From Deltaproteobacteria bacterium (GTDB lineage: Bacteria > Myxococcota_A > UBA796 > GCA-2862545), in assembly GCA_007693595.1 (NCBI GenBank), contig REDI01000002.1, positions 1-64,000 on the forward strand: a DNA stretch of 64,000 nt, given 5' to 3'. The notes beneath the pieces are model-generated. The model did not search any database. It was not told the origin of the DNA and was given only the letters and a program-made list of their open reading frames with translations. This document shows, piece after piece, positions 594 through 6,762 of the stretch (its first letter is position 1; the number at the start of each line of letters is the position of its first letter). The translations under genes and the position numbers were made by a program.

Positions 594-3500
594 TCATCGG
601 CAGATCTCGTCCTGGAAGAGGGTCCGAAGTAGGTTGTTCGCCATGTCAGGCCCCATCTCGGAGGGGATGACGTCGTTCGCGAAGCCGAGCATCATGGTCT
701 GGTGGCTCGACCCCACGACGGCACAGCTCCGGTCGCCGACCCGACAGTAGGACGTCGCGGTGTCGCTGGTCCGCTGCATCGACCAGCTCGGAGACACGTC
801 CGACTCGAAGTAGGGAACCAAGTTGACCAGGTCCACCGTGGAACCCACCGCCCCACCCCGGAGCGGATCCAGCGGGCTCATGCTTTCGAATACGCCCCAG
901 AACTCATAGGTCACGTCGAAGAGGGAGGCCAGTTCGGCCCCTCTGGATTGATCCGAGACGATCAGCCGCCCACCCCTATCGAGGTAAGCCTGCATGGCGC
1001 TCTGATCTTCGGAGCTGATCGCCGTCACGCCTCGCGCGTCCTGATTGAAGATGATCACCGCTTCGGCGTTGGCTTCGTCCGCACCCGTGACGGCTTCACG
1101 GATCGTACCTCTGGGATGGTACTCGAAGTTGCTGGAGGCTTCCATGGCCGCAAGGCCTGACTCGATCTCGTCGAACAGCCCGGCATACTTCTCGCCGCCC
1201 CCGTAGTAGTAGACGCTCATGCGGTCCAGGCAGGCATCGGGGACGAAGCCTGAACCACCCGCCCCATTGCAGACGACAAAGAAGTCCATGTCGGGGGGGG
1301 TTTCGCCCTCGAGGCCGTAGTAGACCTGAACGCCACCGGCCTCACAGCCTCCCTCTCCGGGCTTGAGATCCTGCACAAAGAAGACGGCGGACAACCCATC
1401 GGAGCCCGGAGACCCCTCGCTGCCTTCCTCCCCATTGCAGACTGGGAACTCCTCGGCTGGGTCCCCGACCTCGAACACCCATCCTCCCGCCGGACACTCG
1501 TCGAGGTCCGCCGGCCGGACGTCGAGGTGTGCGTCTTCGCCGGGGGAGCCGTCCTCGCCGGGTGCCCCATTGCAGACCTCGTGCTCTTCGACCGGATCAC
1601 CGGAGCGGATCACGACGCCTCCGAAGCGGCACCGTTCGCTGGAGTCGACGTACTCGACCTCGATGAATCCAGACGCGCCGTCCGCCCCGTTGCAAAGTAT
1701 GAAATCACCGATCCAGCCGTCGGTCGTCCCGTAGCGAACCAGCACACCGCCGTTCCCGGCCTCGCAACGATCGTCGCCGTCCAAGATCTCTACCGTCTCG
1801 ATCACGGCCGAGGCCCCATCGGAACCCGAAGTTCCATCCGCGCCGTTGCACACCTCGTGAGAGCGAAGATCATCCGCATCGAACCCATAGCGGATCTCGA
1901 CCCCGCCGGAGGGGCAGCGCTCGCTCGCGTCGAACTCTTCGATCTCGAGGATCGGCGTCGCGCCCGGGGGGCCCGTCTCGCCCTCGGGGCCGTCTGCCCC
2001 GTTGCACAAGGGGAACTCCCCGCTCAGGCCGTCGGTGGTGCCATAGCGGACGAGCACGCCGCCGTTCCCCGCTTCGCACCGTGCGTCCCCGACCGGGATC
2101 TCCTCGGTCTCGATCACGGCCGAGGCCCCATCGGAACCCGAAGTTCCATCCGCGCCGTTGCACACCTCGTGAGAGCGAAGATCATCCGCATCGAACCCAT
2201 AGCGGATCTCGACCCCGCCGGAGGGGCAGCGCTCGCTCGCGTCGAACGCTTCGATCTCGAGGATCGGCGTCGCGCCCGGGGGGCCCGTCTCGCCTGGGGG
2301 ACCCTCGAGGCCGTTGCAGAGCTCGATGGTCGTCAGCTCATCGTCGGTGTCCAGGCCGAAGGACAGGGCGTAGCCCCCCGTCTCGCAGCGCTCATCGCCC
2401 GGATCGATCCGCACCGCCTCAAAGACCGGCCGGCCCTCGCTGCCCCCCGAGCCATCGACGCCGTTGCAGATCTCGACCAGCTCGAGATCCTCGCCCTCGT
2501 AGCCATAGGCGATGACGATCCCGCCCGCCGGGCACTCATCGGTCGTGGCAGGGGTGACGTTGAACACCGCGTTGCGCCCGTCGGAGCCGTCCGCGCCATC
2601 ACACAAGAGGAAGCTGTCGAGATCTTCGCCGGCGACCCCATAGAAGACCTCGACCCCGGAGATGCCGAGCCCACAGCGCTCATCCTCAGCGGTGAACGTA
2701 TCGATATCAAAGACAGCGGAGGCCCCGGCCTCGCCGGCTGACCCCGTGGCGCCGTTGCACACGAGCTCCGTGTCGGGCTCTTCGCCCTCGTAGCCATAGG
2801 TGATGAGGATGCCGCCCTCGTCACACGCCCCGTCGGGGGCGTCGGTCACGGTGAGGACAGCGCCTCGACCATCGACCCCGTCGAGGCCGTCGCAGACGAC
2901 GAAGCTGTCCATCTCATCGCGTGAGTCGCCTTCGTTGCCGAAGAAGACCTCGGTCCCGCCCGCCGGGCAGCGGTCATCGCCTTCCTCGATGACCTCAAAC
3001 TCATAGATGGCCGCCGCACCTGCGGTGCCGTCGGAGCCGGGGGCGCCGTTGCAAACCGGCATCTCGGTGGGGGAGCTCTCGTCGCCGAAGAGCAGGACCA
3101 CCCCCCCGTACTCGCAGTCGTCTTCGTCCGCGTCGACGATCTCGAAGTAGGCGCTGCCTGGCGAACCCGCGCGTCCATCGGCGCCGTTGCAGAGCACGAC
3201 GCGGTCTAGATCATCGGGATCATCGCCTTCGTAGCCATAGATAAGCTCGACACCCCCCTTGCCCTCATCGCACCGATCATCGTCGTCGCCGAACTCCTCG
3301 ACCTCGAACCAGGCAGCCCGCCCGTCGGCGCCCTCGGAGCCATCGGAGCCATCGCACACGTGCACCGTGGTGAGGTCGTCCTCGTCATAGCCATAGACGA
3401 TGGTCACGCCGCCATCGGGGCAGTCCCCCTCGTCGGCTTCTGAGACCGTGAGGATCGCGTCGAGTCCGTCGACCCCATCGATGCCATCGATGCCGTTGCA

Positions 3501-4238
3501 CAGCAAGAAGCTCTCGAGGTCGTCGAGCTCATCGCCCTCGTGGCCGTAGAAGACCTCGACCCCGCTGCGGCCCTCGCCACAGCGCTCGTCCTCGGCCTCG
3601 AAAGACTCGACATCGAACCAGGCGGGGCGCCCTTCCGCTCCATCGCAGACGTGCACCGTCTCGAGATCCTCTTCGTCGTAGCCGTAGACGATGGTCACCC
3701 CGCCGTCGGGGCAGTCCCCTTCGTCGGCCTCGGACACGGTCAAGATCGCGTCGAGTCCATCGACGCCATCGATGCCATCGATGCCGTTACAGACATAGAC
3801 CACCTCGAGGTCGTCGGGATCATCGTCGTCATAGCCATAGGTGACCGCGAGGCCCCCGCTGGGGCAGTTCTCATCGCCCTCGTCCAGCACCTCGACGTCG
3901 AGGATCGTGCCACGGCCGTCTTCGCCATCGGCGGAGTTGCAGAGGTAGACCGTCTGGTGCTCGTCGGAGTCTTCCCCTTCGAGGCCGTAGGTGATGGCGA
4001 CGCCGCCATGCTCGCAGTTCGGATCACCGACCGGCAGATCTTCGAGCGAGACGAAGGCCGTCGAGCCATCCTGGCCGTCCGCTCCGTTGAAGATGGTCTC
4101 GGTGGTGCCGTCGGGGCACGAGATGGTGGTGGACCCATCTTCGTTGCCTACGACCGTACACGGGACCGGGGTCTCGACGCAGCCGGACATGGCGAGGATC
4201 GCGACGATCGTAGTGGAGGCGTAGCTGAGGCGTGTCAT
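594..4238 (-). CDS. 19-module Cys/collagen-like repeat lipoprotein (DUF7151 type) with GATase-like C-terminal domain
   Basis: The 1214-residue protein has a lipoprotein signal (lipobox LAMSGC, Cys 20). About 19 modules of 45-55 residues follow (about residues 44-998). Each has the pattern Cys-x(2-4)-Gly-Gly, a YG or FG motif, an acidic stretch and [VL]C[ND]G, followed by a Gly-x-Asp/Gly-x-x hinge. Each module carries one Cys pair, which suggests a disulfide. Residues about 999-1214 lack the repeats; VIIFNQD, a YLDRGGRLIVSD strand and a helix-rich end recall ThuA/class-I-amidotransferase-like folds. The start at 4238 is chosen for its AGGAG ribosome site and lipoprotein signal; an upstream GTG at 4262 is unlikely. 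An extracellular fibrous, acidic, possibly Ca-binding surface protein is inferred; its role is unknown. Confidence 0.85.
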   Translation of the reverse strand: MTRLSYASTTIVAILAMSGCVETPVPCTVVGNEDGSTTISCPDGTTETIFNGADGQDGSTAFVSLEDLPVGDPNCEHGGVAITYGLEGEDSDEHQTVYLCNSADGEDGRGTILDVEVLDEGDENCPSGGLAVTYGYDDDDPDDLEVVYVCNGIDGIDGVDGLDAILTVSEADEGDCPDGGVTIVYGYDEEDLETVHVCDGAEGRPAWFDVESFEAEDERCGEGRSGVEVFYGHEGDELDDLESFLLCNGIDGIDGVDGLDAILTVSEADEGDCPDGGVTIVYGYDEDDLTTVHVCDGSDGSEGADGRAAWFEVEEFGDDDDRCDEGKGGVELIYGYEGDDPDDLDRVVLCNGADGRAGSPGSAYFEIVDADEDDCEYGGVVLLFGDESSPTEMPVCNGAPGSDGTAGAAAIYEFEVIEEGDDRCPAGGTEVFFGNEGDSRDEMDSFVVCDGLDGVDGRGAVLTVTDAPDGACDEGGILITYGYEGEEPDTELVCNGATGSAGEAGASAVFDIDTFTAEDERCGLGISGVEVFYGVAGEDLDSFLLCDGADGSDGRNAVFNVTPATTDECPAGGIVIAYGYEGEDLELVEICNGVDGSGGSEGRPVFEAVRIDPGDERCETGGYALSFGLDTDDELTTIELCNGLEGPPGETGPPGATPILEIEAFDASERCPSGGVEIRYGFDADDLRSHEVCNGADGTSGSDGASAVIETEEIPVGDARCEAGNGGVLVRYGTTDGLSGEFPLCNGADGPEGETGPPGATPILEIEEFDASERCPSGGVEIRYGFDADDLRSHEVCNGADGTSGSDGASAVIETVEILDGDDRCEAGNGGVLVRYGTTDGWIGDFILCNGADGASGFIEVEYVDSSERCRFGGVVIRSGDPVEEHEVCNGAPGEDGSPGEDAHLDVRPADLDECPAGGWVFEVGDPAEEFPVCNGEEGSEGSPGSDGLSAVFFVQDLKPGEGGCEAGGVQVYYGLEGETPPDMDFFVVCNGAGGSGFVPDACLDRMSVYYYGGGEKYAGLFDEIESGLAAMEASSNFEYHPRGTIREAVTGADEANAEAVIIFNQDARGVTAISSEDQSAMQAYLDRGGRLIVSDQSRGAELASLFDVTYEFWGVFESMSPLDPLRGGAVGSTVDLVNLVPYFESDVSPSWSMQRTSDTATSYCRVGDRSCAVVGSSHQTMMLGFANDVIPSEMGPDMANNLLRTLFQDEICR
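1801..2294 (-). repeat. 312-bp tandem internal duplication in the repeat lipoprotein gene
   Basis: About 180 bases starting at 1801 recur almost base for base starting at 2113, a period of 312 bases or 104 codons, which is exactly two protein modules. Only about one base differs in the core, so this duplication is recent or maintained by gene conversion. Flanking modules are similar only at protein level. Confidence 0.8.
3388..3798 (-). repeat. 291-bp older internal duplication in the repeat lipoprotein gene
   Basis: The stretch near 3400-3507 recurs near 3691-3798, a period of 291 bases or 97 codons (two modules). The encoded residues from DAILTV through GVTIVYGYDE are the same in both copies, although the DNA carries many synonymous differences. 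The conserved protein over diverged DNA indicates selection on the module sequence. Confidence 0.65.
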
Positions 4239-4431
4239 GGAGGACTCCTGGTGTCGGGGCAAGCCATGGACGCTACCAACTCATGTGCCTGGGCGTCAAC
4301 GCGCGCGGCTCCGCTCGGAGGCGCGCGTGCCGAAGACCGCGTCGCATCGACTCGGGCGGACCGAGAGAGCTAGGATCAAGGGTCCTCGGGTTCTCTCCGG
4401 CCAAGGTGGCTCGGTACGCGCAGGAACCGGA

Positions 4432-6762
4432 TCAGCCGTACAGCAGAGTGCAGATCACCACCGCGGCGATGACCCCCGCGAGGTCGGCGGTGAGCGCGGC
4501 GTACATGGCGTGGCGGATGCGCTTGATGCCCACCGCGCCGAAGTAGACCGCGAGCACATAGAAGGTGGTCTCGGTGGAGCCCTGGAAGGTGCTCACCAAG
4601 TAGCCCGCGTAGCTGTCGGGGCCGATCGCAGGATCCGCGATGATGCTGACCAAGACCCCATACGCGCCCGATCCCGAGAGCGGACGCAGCAGGGCCATGG
4701 GCAGCGCCTCACCCGGCAGGCCGACGGCCGAGGTCCACGGGCCAATCAGGCCGACGAACGCGTCGAGGGCCCCCGAGGCGCGGAACATGCCGATGGCGAC
4801 CAGGATCCCAACCAAGAAGGGGATGATGCGCACCGCGACCTGGAAGCCATCGCGGGCGCCGCCGACGAAGGTCTCGTAGACCGGGACGTTGCGGAAGAAG
4901 CCGAAGGCGAGCAGGCCGAGCACGATGAGGGGGATGAGCCAGGGGACTGAGGCCTCGATGTAGGGGCGGGTCCAGGGCAGCAGGGCGAGCGGAATCAGGC
5001 TGAACAAGGCCAGGAGCGCGAGCCCCGTGACCCAGCCGGGGTACGCGGCGCTGGCCTCGTCGGGGAGGGCCTCGGGCTCTTCGTCGGGCGAAGTCGAGGG
5101 CTCTTCCGTCGTGACGGGCTCTGGCTCGTGCGGACTCGAGTCGGCGGTGGGAAGGGGGCCGAGAGGCGTGAAGCGCTGCATGGTCTTGGAGGCGACGATC
5201 GCCACCGCCGTCGAGCAGAGCGTCGCGAAGAGGGTGGTGACGAGGATGCCCCCCGGATCGGCCGAGCCGGTCGCGGCGCGCAGGGCGATGACGCCCGTAG
5301 GTAGGATCGTGACATTCGACGTATTGATCGCCAGAAAGAGCGCCATGGCGTTGGTCGCGGTGCCCGGCCGCTCGTTGAGCTTGTCCAGCTCCTCCATCGC
5401 GCGGATCCCGAAGGGCGTCGCCGCGTTCCCGAGCCCGAGCGCGTTGGCCGACATGTTGAGCACCATCGCCCCCATGGCGGGGTGGTCAGGGGGTACATCG
5501 GGAAAGAGGCGCACCATGAGCGGACGGATCAGCTTGGCGAGGATGGTGAGCAGCCCGCCCGCCTCGCCGACCTTCATGAGCCCCAAGAAGAGCGTCATGA
5601 CGCCGATGAGGCCGATCGCCAGCGTGACGGCTGCACCCGCGGAGTCGATGATGCCCATGCCGAGCGACTCCATCGGCGTGGTCGGACGCACGGTACGCCA
5701 CGTGCCGCGATCCGCGTCGAGCACGGTCGCGCCCGGCTCACCGCCCCCGATGGCGGCGAACCCTGATCGGGTGTTGACCCCGACGGCGCTCAGCCGGGGC
5801 TCGGCGATGGGGGCGAGGTCTTGCCAGGATTCTCCGAACCGGGCTTCGGAGGTGAGCAGCGGAGCGCCGCGGCCCGAGCGCCCGCCGACGATCACCGCCT
5901 CGCCGTCGACCAATCCAGCCGCCGCGCCGATCCGGCCCTGGCTGAGCTTGCCGGCGATCCCCCAGGTCATGCTCACCGGATCGAGGATCTCGGCGGAGGG
6001 GAGCGCTTGTTCGACGAGGTTCTCTCCCCCGACCAACAGCACGCCCTCGGCAGGGAGCTCGAGGAGCTGATGGCCGACCCTTGGCATGCGCGGACCTGGG
6101 TACGCCTCCCAGGCCCGCTTGGCCATGCGGTAGACCAGCAGGGTGGACGCCGCTTGACCATCGGTGGTGATGCCCCCGACGACCACGGGATCGTCGCCCA
6201 TCAGCGCGACGGCCGCCTGCGCTCGAGGCTCCGGCATAGGCGGGAGGCGCTCCCACATCCCCGCATCGGGAGCGTAGCGCCAGGCTCCGGTGACCGGGGC
6301 CTCGCCATCGTGCCCACCGAGCACCAGCACCGAGGCGTCGGGGAGCGTGAGCACGTGAGGCTCGGCGATCGCGATCGGCATCGGATCGGCGCTCGTCCAC
6401 CGTCCGGCCAGCGCATCGAAGCGCTCGACCTGGTTGGTGAGGGTGAGCTCCTCGAGCGCGAAGAGGCGGCGGAGGGTCGAGAGCACGCCGCGCTCCTTGG
6501 CGTATCCCCCGAAGAGCAGCAGGTCCCCATCGGGCAGACCCGCGCTACCCGCGCTGCGCCGTACCGTCGCGGGCGCTTCGAGGGGCTCCCAGCGCTCCCC
6601 GTCGAAGGTCGAAGCGCCTGAGTACCCGACCACCGCCGCGCGTCCATCGGCCAAGCGGGCCACGGTACGGCCCTGCTCCGCCTCGGGAGGGCTCCAGGTG
6701 ATCTGGAACCACGCCGCGAACACAAAGGCGATCAGCACCAGACCGAAGAAGATGCGGTTCAT
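4432..6762 (-). CDS. SpmA-SpmB fusion with a Kelch beta-propeller inserted in the SpmA half
   Basis: A 776-residue membrane protein. Residues 1-20 form the first transmembrane helix of SpmA type. Residues 35-360 are a six-bladed Kelch-like propeller with GG doublets near 85, 149, 196, 245, 293 and 339. Residues 372-530 resume the SpmA nucleoside-recognition/gate domain, with PDVPPDHPAMGAM, LGLGNAATPFG and LAINTSNVTILPT. A charged linker (540-570) leads to SpmB (600-776), with LLRPLSGSGA and FQGSTETTFY. SpmA and SpmB are known from Bacillus spore maturation, and fused forms occur in Gram-negatives, probably as transporters of an unknown solute. The propeller would face the periplasm. The start at 6762 is preferred because SpmA proteins begin this way. 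Confidence 0.85.
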   Translation of the reverse strand: MNRIFFGLVLIAFVFAAWFQITWSPPEAEQGRTVARLADGRAAVVGYSGASTFDGERWEPLEAPATVRRSAGSAGLPDGDLLLFGGYAKERGVLSTLRRLFALEELTLTNQVERFDALAGRWTSADPMPIAIAEPHVLTLPDASVLVLGGHDGEAPVTGAWRYAPDAGMWERLPPMPEPRAQAAVALMGDDPVVVGGITTDGQAASTLLVYRMAKRAWEAYPGPRMPRVGHQLLELPAEGVLLVGGENLVEQALPSAEILDPVSMTWGIAGKLSQGRIGAAAGLVDGEAVIVGGRSGRGAPLLTSEARFGESWQDLAPIAEPRLSAVGVNTRSGFAAIGGGEPGATVLDADRGTWRTVRPTTPMESLGMGIIDSAGAAVTLAIGLIGVMTLFLGLMKVGEAGGLLTILAKLIRPLMVRLFPDVPPDHPAMGAMVLNMSANALGLGNAATPFGIRAMEELDKLNERPGTATNAMALFLAINTSNVTILPTGVIALRAATGSADPGGILVTTLFATLCSTAVAIVASKTMQRFTPLGPLPTADSSPHEPEPVTTEEPSTSPDEEPEALPDEASAAYPGWVTGLALLALFSLIPLALLPWTRPYIEASVPWLIPLIVLGLLAFGFFRNVPVYETFVGGARDGFQVAVRIIPFLVGILVAIGMFRASGALDAFVGLIGPWTSAVGLPGEALPMALLRPLSGSGAYGVLVSIIADPAIGPDSYAGYLVSTFQGSTETTFYVLAVYFGAVGIKRIRHAMYAALTADLAGVIAAVVICTLLYG

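Follow-up and report, generated by a model that had tools for sequence, protein, structure and literature searches.

The window, the stretch of 64,000 nucleotides analysed here, encodes a fused SpmA-SpmB protein (SpmAB) in which a Kelch propeller is inserted into the loop between the first and second transmembrane helices (TM1 and TM2) of the SpmA half. The evidence leaves very little doubt about this architecture, and the insertion is real, unusual and found in one genus only. Two Gate domains (PF07670; 5284-5616 in the SpmA half and 4522-4833 in the SpmB half, both over the cut-off in a Gate search of the genome) and the Kelch region lie in one frame, and the initial annotation was right to place an SpmA-SpmB fusion at 4432-6762. 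The gene starts with the ATG at 6762, the N-terminus MNRIFF agreeing with the start of most relatives. Its parts, all on the reverse strand, are as follows.

4432..6762 (-), whole gene, SpmA with Kelch propeller insert plus SpmB, 776 aa and stop (from translation, Pfam Gate and Kelch, and the same-genus homologue)
6697..6762 (-), first SpmA helix (TM1), residues 1-22 (helix at 2-21 according to AlphaFold2; matches the N-terminal end of SpmAB proteins that lack the propeller)
5677..6696 (-), inserted seven-bladed Kelch propeller and its tethers, residues 23-362 (Pfam Kelch, DSSP of the model, VIA-align, one Trp per blade); blades at about residues 33-61, 72-125, 136-173, 184-222, 232-272, 277-316 and 327-358
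5176..5676 (-), rest of SpmA with the first Gate domain, residues 363-529 (Gate match 5284-5616, invariant columns, AlphaFold2 models)
5038..5175 (-), acidic SpmA-SpmB linker, predicted cytoplasmic, residues 530-575 (K/R against D/E count, low pLDDT)
4435..5037 (-), SpmB part with the second Gate domain, residues 576-776 (Gate match 4522-4833, partial match to NCBIfam PRK10519)

Architecture and fold of the inserted propeller

Relatives that lack a propeller possess an N-terminal helix (MNxIF..LV..AF..A) that leads, directly or via a short loop, into the sequence starting here at residue 361; they align to residues 1-28 and then again from about 360. Since this alignment resumes after the propeller, the domain has been inserted inside SpmA after its first membrane helix rather than joined end to end, as had been proposed. 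The initial annotation had SpmA broken off after residues 1-20 and resuming at 372; the split itself is confirmed, while the resumption belongs at about 361-363. The domain search that it recommended recovers both families, with a Gate match at residues 383-492 (E 5e-19) and Kelch models scoring well above cut-off, their motifs extending from residue 53 to about 300, between TM1 and the first Gate domain. The PRK10519 match on the SpmB part falls below that model's own cut-off. The linker region (528-575) carries one K/R against 11 D/E and has low pLDDT in the AlphaFold2 model.

A full-length AlphaFold2 model built from 60 sequences (mean pLDDT 81.9, pTM 0.76) folds both propeller and core, and so answers the call for a structure prediction with a propeller folded within the TM1-TM2 loop. 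It comprises a helix at 2-21, seven four-stranded groups between 33 and 358, and a long helix from 363; pLDDT is mostly 75-93 in blades 1-4 and modest, mostly 57-83, in blades 5-7. The propeller had been described as six-bladed, but it has seven blades, as judged from the strand groups, the best whole-length structural matches and a Trp in each blade (W58, W122, W170, W218, W267, W313, W355), all seven of which are kept in the homologue from the same genus (L002), as are most of the GG motifs. The highest VIA-align scores, Z 23-25 over 296-316 residues, are to seven-bladed galactose oxidases, and the next, Z about 22-23 over about 305 residues, to PLL-type lectins; the six-bladed domains of KLHL proteins and Keap1 cover only about 230-270 residues.

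The domain thus has its fold, Kelch motifs and seven blades in common with galactose oxidase-type propellers, but differs from them in sitting in a membrane-protein loop and in having no Cys-Tyr copper site. The only Cys residues of the protein are at 516 and 771, and the absence of Cys from residues 23-362 excludes the Cys-Tyr copper cofactor, and with it a galactose oxidase (AA5) identity. Identity as a NanM/YjhT epimerase was also rejected, with PF24996 (NANM; E 4e-5, 23.2 bits against a cut-off of 45) and TIGR03547 (YjhT; 13.8 bits against 256) both under their curated cut-offs; the NANM match in L002 (1e-9, 38 bits) is likewise below 45.

Distribution of the architecture and growth of the TM1-TM2 loop

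We searched 379 sampled genomes of the phylum, 63 of the order, 21 of the family, 398 of Pseudomonadota, 241 of Verrucomicrobiota and a plasmid collection; the phylum and order counts include the window's genus, leaving 61 other genomes of the order. Among all of these, matches run through the propeller only in the window protein and in one from G298, the one further genome of this genus in the sample. Its gene (locus L002), 54-56% identical, repeats the architecture and is broken by contig ends, the last residues lying on another contig. No propeller was seen in SpmAB homologues outside the genus in the sampled phylum, the order, Pseudomonadota, Verrucomicrobiota or the plasmid collection, such that the search for the same architecture elsewhere succeeded within the genus and failed across the rest of the sampled phylum. 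Apparent matches into the propeller in six further genomes (G142, G225, G282, G006, G235, G259) proved to be inserts of 0-71 residues without Kelch motifs. Nor did we find a Kelch-SpmA architecture described in the open-access literature. An architecture seen in two draft genomes only might be suspected of arising from chimeric assembly or from a gene call that wrongly joined Kelch and SpmAB genes, but this is wholly implausible: the order and insertion point agree in two independent genomes, whose parts are 39-73% identical, and a single open frame carries TM1 before the propeller and SpmA after it.

SpmAB itself is widespread. The window protein has the two Gate-domain halves of Bacillus subtilis SpmA and SpmB (dacB-spmA-spmB) in the same order, but here the halves are fused into one chain, and a propeller of 340 residues separates TM1 from TM2 in SpmA. 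SpmA and SpmB act in spore core dehydration (PMC8745062), a role that does not carry over to the window protein, and have no known biochemical activity (PMC3533761). To regard the gene as a Bacillus spore function retained by a non-spore-former was an overstatement, homologues being common in non-spore-formers (Pseudomonadota, Legionella, Prevotella, Bacteroides); matches at 41-48% identity carry spore maturation or nucleoside recognition domain annotations, among them spore maturation proteins of Legionella adelaidensis, Prevotella nigrescens and Vescimonas. Closer at hand, SpmA-SpmB fusions without a propeller, from Pseudomonadota and from the window's own order, share TM1, the fusion and a core that is mostly 54-69% identical, but their loops hold 0-160 extra residues of other make-up. 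Two members of the same family (G015, G301) gave no SpmAB match at all, and hence the gene may be dispensable.

The TM1-TM2 loop of SpmAB is an insertion hotspot. Most of the 124 homologues with a measurable loop have no extra residues, many close relatives have 10-50, mostly of low complexity, and longer inserts reach 103-104 residues (L007, L018), 160 Ala-rich residues (L012), and 341 and 358 residues in this genus. The L007, L018 and L012 inserts differ from Kelch and are apparently helical. A further set of SpmAB proteins (L087-L092, L095, L097-L099, L101-L108), mostly from f4, another family of the order, independently carries an apparently beta-strand-rich insert of 64-81 residues in the same loop, and the one scanned had no Pfam match for it. 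In a tree of the core, the genus pair forms a clade (100/98) inside an 18-row clade (100/99), every other member of which has a non-Kelch insert of 10-160 residues; f4 falls in a separate clade, and therefore the loop grew at least twice. Pseudomonadota fusions (L038, L039, L040; loci L157-L161), 61-69% identical, branch within the clade to which the window's relatives belong, a pattern suggestive of transfer of the gene from one phylum to another.

The genus's two genomes show no shared operon around SpmAB. In four other family members a DsbA-like gene, and in three an AhpC/TSA-like gene, lies beside SpmAB, and neither kind adjoins the window's gene; these DsbA-like (Thioredoxin_4) and AhpC/TSA genes are at L150:6070-6639, L150:8121-9260, L153:4535-5587, L152:4241-5380, L154:5226-8400 and L155:3031-3687. 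The window's gene adjoins one (594-4262, reverse strand) for a 1222-residue lipoprotein-like protein with many acidic DUF7151 repeats and collagen-like GxDG spacers. No Kelch gene adjoins propeller-free SpmAB in eight neighbourhoods, and the Kelch_6 model finds no further Kelch gene in the window's own genome (G000); several relatives have Kelch genes elsewhere in the genome.

The membrane core and the position of the propeller

The core is predicted to adopt an elevator transporter fold resembling that of the concentrative nucleoside transporters (CNTs; SLC28), to which it would be distantly related. Modelled alone (361-776; pLDDT 89.5), it retrieves CNTs in all of the top twelve VIA-align rows (Z 13.4-15.2 over 273-280 residues, CNTnw and vcCNT best), with the bacterial CNTs aligned from residue 93-95 onward; VcINDY, TRAP and ArsB, of elevator-type or related fold, rank next. 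In Foldseek, CNTnw came out at E 0.04 and YdaH at 0.006, with no match below E 0.001; the relation is therefore drawn from VIA-align, the Gate domain and what has been published on SpoVV, another Gate-family protein that has already been likened to CNTs (PMC5629000). At a Z of about 15 the predicted fold is held in common with CNTs, but the window core has two extra helices between its halves and a sequence identity of 11-16%, and a profile search of PDB sequences with the SpmAB family gave no match. All family-invariant core residues are present in the window protein. The transporter-like core of the initial annotation thus stands.

The same fold allows the propeller to be placed. In CNTs the C-termini are extracellular and the two hairpins oppositely oriented (PMC6986796). 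SpmAB TM2 matches CNT TM3, and counted back from the last helix, this helix would begin outside, which would put the propeller loop in an extracytoplasmic position. The charge pattern agrees, with a basic stretch, KRIRH, preceding the last helix and further basic residues following the final helix of SpmA. Both the fold and the charges therefore favour a propeller that faces the periplasm, as had been supposed. Both published assignments (PMC7440666, PMC6986796) count CNT TM3 and TM6 as scaffold, which is largely unchanged in transport (PMC6986796); with TM2 equivalent to TM3, the propeller would be anchored to the immobile part. In the AlphaFold2 model, tethers of about 11 and about 4 residues connect it to TM1 and TM2, respectively.

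What the propeller may do

On the stem of one genus, a short extracytoplasmic loop would have been replaced by a complete seven-bladed Kelch propeller, leaving the core to work as in propeller-free relatives, with two inverted Gate halves whose hairpin tips would carry a small solute. The predicted fold and the retained family-invariant residues are consistent with transport of this kind. The propeller may then be a fixed periplasmic module beside the transporter, binding a partner (envelope protein, glycan or solute) and so placing or feeding the transporter and not switching it. We give about an even chance to this reading, the likeliest of those considered, of a periplasmic binding or docking domain on an otherwise ordinary SpmAB transporter. 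A more elaborate form, in which the propeller built into an elevator-type transporter would sense or capture a ligand and then either pass it to the transport core or gate that core, as a receptor resembling a substrate-binding protein set in the scaffold, is doubtful.

Identity between the window protein and L002 is 73% in TM1, 69% in the core, 42% in the linker and 39% in the propeller; the propeller diverges about as fast as the linker, and therefore a specific conserved binding site is not supported. On these two sequences, no clear excess conservation of binding-face loops is seen (BC 41% and DA 44%, against 39% for the whole domain), and a conserved ligand-binding pocket, for which a check had been recommended, is not supported. 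Such rapid divergence, in a loop with such varied inserts (none, 10-50 residues, 64-81, about 104 or 160), would also be expected if the loop tolerated almost any insert and the Kelch domain were a nearly neutral accretion of little or no function. An unused domain of 340 residues should decay, however, whereas seven blades, all seven Trp and most GG motifs have been kept despite the large divergence, and third codon positions vary most between the two genes; we consider accretion no better a prospect than the elaborate form above.

Somewhat less probable again is the sensor-gated permease originally suggested, in which the propeller binds a periplasmic ligand and allosterically controls the transport cycle. 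The short tethers are in its favour, as are the ligand-binding lectins and peptide-binding Kelch domains among the structural matches, and both termini lie on the same (DA) face, which, judging from the fold, would turn the usual Kelch ligand face toward the membrane core. Yet the propeller sits between TM1 and the equivalent of a scaffold helix, its BC and DA loops are conserved little differently from the whole domain, all other SpmAB homologues sampled do without it, and no genomic signal points to sensing; gating is thus unsupported.

A propeller enzyme (mutarotase, oxidase or the like) could also prepare a solute at the mouth of the transporter, as NanM may do in sialic acid uptake. The fold match to galactose oxidases and the weak NANM matches in both proteins lean this way, but with no Cys for the oxidase cofactor, both epimerase models below cut-off and NanM being six-bladed, we rate it a poor candidate.

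The TM1-TM2 loop of a widespread family accepts whole folded domains, and a single tree shows every stage from an insert-free loop up to a propeller of seven blades. If the propeller binds a solute or a partner, it would offer a direct handle on the role of SpmA and SpmB, a question that goes back to the work tying them to spore core dehydration.
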